Positions 61,414 through 64,000 of a stretch of DNA of 64,000 nt are shown in pieces (the stretch's first letter is position 1; every line of letters begins with the position of its first letter). This stretch comes from Stackebrandtia albiflava (GTDB lineage: Bacteria > Actinomycetota > Actinomycetes > Mycobacteriales > Micromonosporaceae), in NCBI RefSeq assembly GCF_007994225.1, contig NZ_VLLL01000011.1:1-64000 (forward strand), read 5' to 3'. The notes below the pieces were generated by a model. The model was not told the DNA's origin. It saw nothing but the letters and a program-made list of their open reading frames with translations, and ran no database searches. The translations under genes and the position numbers were made by a program.

Positions 61414-61431
61414 CCCGGCGGGTCGGCATGA

Positions 61432-61448
61432 TGTGTGAAACGCATACA
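61432..61448. promoter_or_regulatory. Possible VapBC operator (inverted repeat)
   Basis: TGTGTG (61432-61437) and CATACA (61443-61448) form an imperfect inverted repeat 22 bp before the vapB start, in the place where a VapB-type autorepressor would bind. Confidence 0.3.
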
Positions 61449-61469
61449 CGACCGACATCTGGGGGCGTC

Positions 61470-61701
61470 ATGTCGGAGACACGGATCGATCTCGACGACG
61501 AATCCCCGGCCGAGGCGGCTCGCCCCGGGTATCACGACTGAGAAGGACACGGTGAACTCCGCGCTGCCGGAGGTGATGCTCCGAGTGAAACGGTTGGAGG
61601 CGTTGGAGAAGCTCGGAAGGCGAGCAGAGCGTGGTGAGTTCGACGCGGCGATCGCGGCGCGCGATGCCGAGCGTCAGGCTCGACGCCGATCCGGGTCATG
61701 A
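61470..61701 (+). pseudogene. vapB: VapB-type antitoxin gene interrupted by a one-base frameshift
   Basis: From ATG 61470 the frame gives MSETRIDLDDESPAEAAR, the usual start of VapB antitoxins, then stops at 61539-61541. Removing one C from the run 61523-61526 joins it to the frame that ends at 61701 (PGITTEKDTVNSALPEV... EALEKL), the usual VapB continuation. The break is therefore a single-base insertion or a sequencing error. A GTG at 61552 with AAGGA upstream could restart translation and yield the C-terminal, toxin-binding half. The 3' end overlaps vapC (ATGA). Confidence 0.85.
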
Positions 61702-62123
61702 TCGAGTATCCGATCGACACCTCGGCGTTGTGGCGTCTGCTCCGGGACGGCGGGCTTCGTGACGAATGGAGCGGACCGATCGGAGCGGGTGCGCTCCATG
61801 TCTGTGAAGCCACCGAGATCGAGTTCCTTCACTCCGCGATGAATGCCGTTCACCGAGATGAACTGCGCGCTGAGCTGCGAATGCTCTGTGCGTACGCCCC
61901 GGTTCCCGAGCGGGCGTGGCAGTGGGTCGAGGGTGCACAGTATCGCCTTACGCAGTCCGCGCAGCACCGGTCCGCCGGCCCGATCGATCTGCTGTCGCGT
62001 GCCACCGCAGTGCATCACGGCCTCACCGTGTTGCATGTCGACCACGACTTCGCGGCGGTGGCGCGGGTGGTATCCGAGGTCGACGAACGGGACTTCCGCG
62101 CGGGCACGTCTCCAGCGGAATGA
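61698..62123 (+). CDS. vapC: VapC-type PIN-domain ribonuclease toxin
   Basis: 141 aa. PIN acidic residues D7 (IDTSALWRLL), E40/E42, D97 (PIDLLS) and D115 (HVDHDF) are all present, so the nuclease looks active. VapC toxins cleave specific tRNA or rRNA. ATG 61698 overlaps the antitoxin stop. An intact toxin behind a frameshifted antitoxin would be harmful unless the antitoxin is still made by restart, another VapB protects the cell, or the frameshift is a sequencing error. Confidence 0.9.
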   Translation: MIEYPIDTSALWRLLRDGGLRDEWSGPIGAGALHVCEATEIEFLHSAMNAVHRDELRAELRMLCAYAPVPERAWQWVEGAQYRLTQSAQHRSAGPIDLLSRATAVHHGLTVLHVDHDFAAVARVVSEVDERDFRAGTSPAE

Positions 62124-62224
62124 CTGTCCGTCAGGGAGTATCTGACGATTCCGGTCTGATCAGCGAGATTCGGCTGGGCTGGCAATCAGGAGGTGCGCCG
62201 ATCGGCTGGGGGACAGGGCAGTGG

Positions 62225-62854
62225 CTACGAACGGCGCGCCAATAGATGGACGTCGAGGAAGCCCCGATCAGAGGCTGGATCGTGGAGCAGGCGGGCGAAG
62301 GGATCGAGCCCAGCATCGCCCAGCAGTTCGGCGAGGCGATCCACCGGCCAGCTGTAGGCGGGCGCCACCTTGTGGTCGAACCGGACCGGTTCTTGTCCGT
62401 CGGTCCCGAAGAAGGAGACCAGGAGCAGACCGTCCGGTGCCAGGACGCGTACCTGTTCGGCGAGCAGCTCCGGTAGTTCCCCCGGAGGGGTGTGAATCAT
62501 CGAGTAGTGGGCCAGTATGCCGCCGAGCGCGGCGTCCTCGATCGGCAGGGATTCCATCCGCGCCTCTTGGAAGCGCAGCGCCGGATGGGCCTGCCGGGCG
62601 TGGTCGACCATGCCGGGGGCAAGGTCTAGTCCGAAGGCGTCCAGGCCGAGTTCGTGCAGCATGGCTGTCAGATGTCCGGGCCCGCACCCGACGTCCGCTG
62701 TCCGCAGGTTGCCCGTCGCGCGCACCAGTTCGGCGAAGGTGCCGATCATGGCCCGGGAGAAAGGCTGTGTTTCCAGCCGGTTTGCGAACAGCGATGCGTA
62801 CAGCTCGACGACACCGTCGTAGGCCGTCCTGGTCTCGTCCTGATGATTCTCCAC
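62225..62854 (-). CDS. Class I SAM-dependent methyltransferase
   Basis: 209 aa. Motif I ADVGCGPGHLTAMLHE, FGLDLAPGMVDHAR (motif post-I) and a later LAPDGLLLVSFFG. Type-11-like methyltransferase of small-molecule kind; substrate unknown. GTG 62854 with TAGAGT 7 nt upstream (leaderless) is preferred over starts further upstream that run into the IS end. The gene ends 101 bp from vapC (convergent). Confidence 0.88.
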   Translation of the reverse strand: MENHQDETRTAYDGVVELYASLFANRLETQPFSRAMIGTFAELVRATGNLRTADVGCGPGHLTAMLHELGLDAFGLDLAPGMVDHARQAHPALRFQEARMESLPIEDAALGGILAHYSMIHTPPGELPELLAEQVRVLAPDGLLLVSFFGTDGQEPVRFDHKVAPAYSWPVDRLAELLGDAGLDPFARLLHDPASDRGFLDVHLLARRS

Positions 62855-62861
62855 GGGCGGG

Positions 62862-62867
62862 ACTCTA
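62862..62867 (-). promoter_or_regulatory. Candidate leaderless -10 box at the IS border
   Basis: TAGAGT on the minus strand ends 7 nt before GTG 62854 and lies 1 bp from the left inverted repeat of the IS, so the -35 region is inside the IS. Confidence 0.45.
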
Positions 62868-62868
62868 T

Positions 62869-62886
62869 AGCCGGTCTGACAATTGA
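62869..62886 (+). repeat. Left inverted repeat of the IS
   Basis: Contains GTCTGACAATTGA at 62874-62886, inverse of the right end with one mismatch in this core. Confidence 0.8.
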
Positions 62887-62904
62887 TCGAGTGGCAGGTC
62901 GAGG

Positions 62905-63773
62905 TTGACGGATGCGGCATGGAGGCGGATAGAGCCCCTTTCGCCTCAGGTGGACGGACGGGGCCGTCCGTGGCGTGAACACCGGCAGGTGGTCAACGGG
63001 GTGCTGTGGAGGCTGCGGACCGGGGCTCCGTTGCGGGATCCTCCCGACCGGTTCGGGCCGTGGCAGACCGTCTACGAGCGGTTCGCCCGCTGGGAGGCGG
63101 ACGGCACGGGCACGGTTGCTGGAGCACGTTCAGGTCCGCGATGACGCGGTGGGCCGGGTGGAATGGACCGTCTCCGTCGACTCCACCACCAACCGAGCCC
63201 ACCAGCACGCAGTCGGCGCCCGCAAGAAGGGGATGTGAACGGGGACGAACTGGAGGATCCGGGCCGCTCGCAGGCGCGCCAGGCCCTCGGCCGCTCCCGA
63301 GGCGGACTGACCACCGAAGTCCATCTCGCCGTCGATGGCCGGGGCCTGCCCCTGTCGATTGTGCTCACGCCCGGCAACGTCAACGACGCGACGGCGTTCG
63401 GCCAGGTCCTCGACGGCATCCGCACCCGCGCCTCGGCACCGGCCGCCCGCGCACGACGCCGGACCGTGTGCCGGGTGACAAGGCGTATTCCAGCAGGGCC
63501 ATCCGCCATCTGCCGAGGCGCCGAGGCATCGCTGCCACGATCCCCGAGCGCCGCGACCAGGCGGCGAACCGCCACCGACGCGGAGCCCTCGGCGGCCGGC
63601 CGCCGGCCTTCGACGAGGTCACCTACCGCGACCGCAACGTCGTCGAACGATGCTTCGCCCGCCTCAAGCAGTTCCGCGCGATCGCGACCCGGTTCGACAA
63701 GCTGGGCGACCGCTACCGTGCCGGAGTTGTCCTGGCTTCCTTGATCCTCTGGCTCCGCGAGTCCACGGGGTAA
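62905..63773 (+). pseudogene. IS5-family DDE transposase, multiply frameshifted
   Basis: The protein is read in four pieces: TDAAWRRIEPLSP...GPWQTVYERFARWEADG from 62905; a piece with VSVDSTTNRAHQHAVGARKKG (first catalytic Asp) ending at 63238; GDELEDPGRSQ...LGRSRGGLTTEVHLAVDGRG...LTPGN through about 63470; and VPGDKAYSSRAIRHLPRRRG...DRNVVERCFARLKQFR (second Asp, Glu) to 63773. At least three frameshifts (near 63110, 63230 and 63470) make it non-functional, or it would need extreme recoding. The DDE residues themselves survive. Confidence 0.92.
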
Positions 63774-63791
63774 TCATTTGTCAGACAGGCC
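63774..63791 (-). repeat. Right inverted repeat of the IS
   Basis: Contains TCATTTGTCAGAC (63774-63786), inverse of the left end with one mismatch; on the minus strand it supplies the stop codon of the adjacent photolyase fragment. Confidence 0.8.
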
Positions 63792-64000
63792 CTGATCCGG
63801 TCCAGCGGTCGATGTACTCGTGGCCGGGGTCGAACCGTTCGGTCTGTCTTCGCATGCCGAGTTTGCGGTTGGGGCGGCTGTCGTTGCCGGTTCCCGCCAT
63901 CCACTGCCAGTTGCCGTAGTTGTTGGCGACGTCGGCGTCGATCAGCCAGCGGTCGAACCAGTGAGCGCCCTCGCGCCAGTCGATCCGCAGGTCCTTGGTG
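63781..64000 (-). CDS. Photolyase/cryptochrome FAD-binding domain, C-terminal part, truncated by the IS and the window edge
   Basis: 72 residues are visible, running off the window. DWREGAHWFDRWLIDADVANN, WQWMAGTGND and RQTERFDPGHEYIDRW match the C-terminal FAD-binding core of photolyases. The last six residues and the TGA (63781-63783) come from or beside the IS right end; photolyases usually continue about 10-20 residues past this Trp, so the gene has lost its natural end. Activity of the shortened protein is uncertain. Confidence 0.85.
   Translation of the reverse strand, partial: TKDLRIDWREGAHWFDRWLIDADVANNYGNWQWMAGTGNDSRPNRKLGMRRQTERFDPGHEYIDRWTGSGPV

Follow-up and report, generated by a model that had tools for sequence, protein, structure and literature searches.

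The question raised by this locus is why an open vapC toxin gene stands directly behind a vapB antitoxin gene that can no longer be read through. The window, by which we mean the whole 64,000-nucleotide stretch of Stackebrandtia albiflava DNA that was analysed, holds the pair near its right end, where the initial annotation had described an intact VapC behind a VapB broken by one extra C. We consider it likely that this is an ordinary vapBC cassette in the course of decay, in which vapB has become a pseudogene while vapC is still open, little toxin is made and the toxin itself is possibly impaired. The cassette and its upstream region comprise the following features.

61428..61465, plus strand: operator/promoter-like stretch and ribosome site, reading ATGATGTGTG..CATACAC, then CCGACAT, with GGGGG before vapB
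61470..61541, plus strand: vapB N-terminal remnant, the RHH/DNA-binding part, 23 codons and then TGA
61524..61527, plus strand: frame-break site, 4 nt in place of the 6 nt usual in the family (net -2)
61525..61701, plus strand: vapB C-terminal remnant, the toxin-binding part in the next frame (profile E 2.4e-13), with R42, A45 and GEFD retained
61698..62123, plus strand: vapC, a PIN-domain toxin frame of 141 aa, joined to the vapB remnant by an ATGA overlap

The toxin gene is the better preserved partner. Its product matches the Pfam PIN domain (PF01850, E 1.4e-12, above the cut-off), scores 28.1 bits with the NCBIfam VapC equivalog, whose cut-off is 80, and is encoded by a frame free of stops or breaks. 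As the initial annotation had stated, all of the catalytic acidic residues are present (D7, E42, D97, D115 and D117), and the toxin does overlap the antitoxin end, its ATG at 61698 lying on the stop at 61699-61701, so that an adjacent upstream antitoxin gene (remnant 61470-61701) overlaps vapC as ATGA. The AlphaFold2 model is a confident PIN fold (pLDDT 93) whose best PDB match is Mycobacterium tuberculosis VapC21 (5sv2, TM 0.85), although we do not take this model as evidence of activity because it says little about single substitutions. Two such substitutions, S100 and R101, lie in the helix after the catalytic D97 and occur in none of 81 relatives, which have I, V, L or T at the first position and A, C, V, S or L at the second. 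Strongly atypical residues number 15 in the window VapC, as against 6, 7, 6 and 11 in its nearest relatives (L090, L038, L031 and L034, respectively); one odd-looking change, L5P, also occurs in a relative. A closer relative suited to a selection test was found neither in 300 family genomes (best ~57% identity), nor among genome contigs (best 60%) or plasmids (best ~40%). Thus the description of an intact toxin behind a broken antitoxin stands as far as the open vapC frame, its full set of acids and the vapB stop at 61539 are concerned, but S100 and R101 raise doubt about the toxin, whose RNase activity or toxicity is possibly impaired.

The antitoxin lesion is larger than had been described. 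From its ATG at 61470, vapB runs for 23 codons (MSETRIDLDDESPAEAARPGYHD) to a TGA at 61539-61541, and the antitoxin continues in a second frame (PGITTEKDTVNSALPEVMLRVKRLEALEKL...RRSGS), which ends with the stop codon at 61699-61701; an intact antitoxin frame is absent from this locus, given the early TGA and the net loss of 2 nt. For comparison, we used loci encoding relatives of the window VapC and took the upstream gene as vapB. Between the IDxD and TKK motifs, 82 of 83 intact VapB relatives have a spacing of 15 residues, the lone 14-residue exception (L053) having one aspartate missing from its DDD run. Deleting one C in 61523-61526, which was supposed to restore a full VapB, leaves a distance of 14 residues in the window. 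A VapB family profile, made from ten VapBs, agrees with this measure: it matches the window in two separate pieces, model positions 1-18 at 61470-61523 and 21-73 at 61528-61686, between which four bases stand for two codons, where six are expected. Because the spacing falls one residue short of the family value and the profile register leaves 4 nt for 6, the lesion is better described as a net 2-nt loss than as a one-base gain, and one extra C as the sole lesion is ruled out on the same two grounds. Neither vapB piece gave any Pfam match, to the antitoxin domain PF09957 or to another family, whereas the VapB of the relative L090 matched PF09957 at 4.2e-17.

Nor is the frame all that has changed. 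L13P and K25E in the window VapB fall in columns that are invariant in 27 of 27 relatives, while P20, I22 and P34 are absent from all 27. Atypical columns make up 8 of 28 in the N-terminal half (one of them a missing residue; relatives have 0-6, mean 1.4). The C-terminal half has 6 of 45, within the normal range (relatives 0-8, mean 3.5), and retains the invariant R and A. Because L13P, K25E, P20, I22 and P34 would remain, restoring the frame alone would not yield a normal antitoxin. To judge by its sequence, vapB is a pseudogene, with a frame break and several presumably damaging substitutions, especially in the DNA-binding half.

These substitutions also bear on whether the break might be an error of sequencing or assembly that hides an intact vapB. 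The indel does adjoin a run of four C. However, with one base removed the spacing is still not that of the family, several VapB substitutions never seen in relatives would be left in place, and the neighbouring genes compared with a sister genome are free of frame breaks: of the 33 genes predicted in that genome with a syntenic counterpart in the window (at least 50% identity), each matches in one frame only, and for 31 the match covers >80% of the gene length. An indel error is unlikely because these 33 syntenic neighbours are unbroken, and an indel-prone assembly is ruled out by them; we regard an error as very improbable. In this part of the window, frame damage was found only in vapB and the neighbouring transposase, a confinement that would fit relaxed selection rather than an indel-prone assembly.

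The same run of bases could in principle allow a programmed or leaky +1 frameshift on CGC CCC GGG that yields some full-length antitoxin, since a proline tRNA can slip by +1 at a CCC that precedes a G. Against this, the A site holds no stop codon, the relatives have no corresponding site, and the product would be one residue short and carry L13P, K25E and R34P. We find such a rescue scarcely credible.

Upstream of vapB, the stretch 61428-61465 resembles, by eye in 15 relatives, the ATGTATG..CATACAT..CCAACAT..GGAGG arrangement of several intact ones, and the vapB ribosome site within it has a Shine-Dalgarno (SD) pairing of -8.4 kcal/mol. The upstream region and ribosome site thus look retained, which counts against decay. 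The inverted-repeat, promoter/operator-like part is still relative-like despite the broken DNA-binding half. At the other end of vapB, a 4-nt overlap joins vapC to the vapB stop in 75 of 79 relatives, an arrangement that points to translational coupling, and the predicted SD pairing of the window vapC itself is -3.4 kcal/mol, with a weaker one in only seven of 79 relatives. Ribosomes that start at the vapB ATG would end at 61541, ~157 nt before vapC, so coupling would be lost unless translation restarts. We think that the vapB break itself would lower VapC output.

Two possible restart sites lie between the premature stop and vapC.

61552..61701, plus strand: possible restart frame of 49 codons from GTG 61552, which follows the premature stop by 10 nt; SD pairing -6.3 kcal/mol
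61585..61701, plus strand: alternative restart frame of 38 codons from GTG 61585; the GGAGG at 61569-61573 lies at a spacing of 11 and has an SD pairing of -10.8 kcal/mol

With either site, the locus might encode a split antitoxin: ribosomes that stop at TGA 61541 would begin anew at GTG 61552 or 61585, make the toxin-binding half only and run on into vapC through the ATGA, so that toxin is produced only along with a neutralizing fragment that does not bind DNA. The position of GTG 61552, just past the stop, the strong GGAGG before GTG 61585, and the contrast between a C-terminal half that is in the normal range, with its invariant R and A, and a clearly atypical N-terminal half all speak for such an arrangement. 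The GTG and the AAGGA noted in the initial annotation are indeed both present (AAGGA at 61543-61547), but AAGGA is dictated by the codons of the conserved KKDTVN motif and is also found in intact antitoxins, and an SD-like string with a start codon occurs at the same place in 13 of 84 intact vapB genes. The apparent restart signal is therefore mostly a by-product of the KKDTVN codons. The one genuine hint for a split antitoxin is the uneven damage to the two halves. Moreover, R34P falls inside the fragment, and we found no relative with an intact vapC and a C-half-only antitoxin, as the one relative that has only the C-terminal half (L030) carries a stop in vapC. A search of the available literature returned nothing directly on a truncated VapB that still neutralizes. 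Because the numbers behind the uneven damage are small, and because the N-terminal half has more conserved columns to break, we hold a split antitoxin to be unlikely. If true, the operon would lack autorepression yet stay safe because fragment and toxin are translationally coupled, and it would separate neutralization from autoregulation in a natural system.

A toxin that is active and expressed might instead be neutralized by another VapB of the same genome, which contains three further vapBC pairs, the closest VapC being 40% identical. Yet at 40% identity VapB-VapC pairing is usually specific, and a profile search found no orphan VapB elsewhere in the genome. Neutralization from another pair is, in our view, quite improbable.

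The surroundings suggest how the cassette came to be here. No vapBC follows ispH in four sister genomes, where other genes directly follow it; in one of them (G003) this is a photolyase-like gene, which in the window lies beyond 63794, separated from ispH by ~2.4 kb that hold vapBC, a methyltransferase and IS5. The vapBC cassette was probably acquired horizontally. A mobile methyltransferase-IS5 unit (62133-63793) starts 10 bp downstream of vapC and contains an IS5-family transposase, which is frame-broken, and a minus-strand class I SAM methyltransferase (62225-62920). It is 97.4% identical over its full length to plasmid copies in Streptomyces anulatus and S. platensis, and 94.8% identical to one S. 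cyaneofuscatus copy; the Streptomyces copies occupy unrelated sites, share the ends AGGG..CCCT and have CTAG as their target, and the unit appears to be an IS5 element that carries a methyltransferase as passenger. Relative to these copies, the window transposase has 4-, 2- and 1-nt deletions at 62903, 63107 and 63424, and spreads over more than one frame. The 3' end of the photolyase-like gene (63781-64000, minus strand, PF03441) appears to be cut by the right end of the unit at 63793.

Returning to the decaying cassette, the course of events may have been as follows. The net 2-nt loss at 61524-61527 would halt vapB translation after 23 codons, with several residues of the DNA-binding half also lost. 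That the toxin gene is tolerated probably reflects a low output of toxin, given the weak vapC ribosome site and a coupling through the vapB stop that would be cut ~157 nt upstream; VapC may be further weakened through S100 and R101, and the cassette as a whole would be under neutral decay. Counting against decay, the VapC acids are all kept, the vapC frame is unbroken, and in the C-terminal half of VapB atypical residues are no commoner than among intact relatives. Read as decay, the locus is one more example of a toxin-antitoxin (TA) pair whose antitoxin can go first at no obvious cost, and it could serve as an inexpensive test of whether breaking the upstream gene silences a coupling-dependent toxin.

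Damage to vapB recurs among the relatives. In Nonomuraea basaltis (L030), which has the closest VapC (60%), the first half of vapB is lost and vapC has a stop at codon 12; in Streptomyces sp. rh34 (L095) an internal vapB deletion carries the reading frame on into vapC; and in L104 the N-terminal half of vapB and most of vapC are gone. These losses are independent events, and decaying pairs of this kind recur among the relatives. In L095, in the 150 bp before vapC, the deletion creates a natural VapB-VapC fusion frame in which the first VapB codons lead into an open vapC.

Compared with VapBC systems that carry a PF09957 VapB, such as M. tuberculosis VapBC15 and the intact pair of Nonomuraea jabiensis (L090), the window cassette has in common the acids of a PIN VapC, the vapB-vapC order, the ATGA overlap and recognizable VapB pieces, but its vapB is frame-broken and further damaged, and no complete antitoxin can be read. 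The closest solved structures to the window VapC by sequence and fold are M. tuberculosis VapC21 (5sv2) and VapC3 (3h87), with 28-31% identity over the structural match; the VapC3 structure includes an intact antitoxin bound to the toxin. VapC toxins left as orphans and TA pairs degraded to remnants have been described (reviewed in PMC7354431), and the window cassette fits that pattern: as in those cases, a toxin gene stands without an intact antitoxin, although here both antitoxin pieces are still in place.
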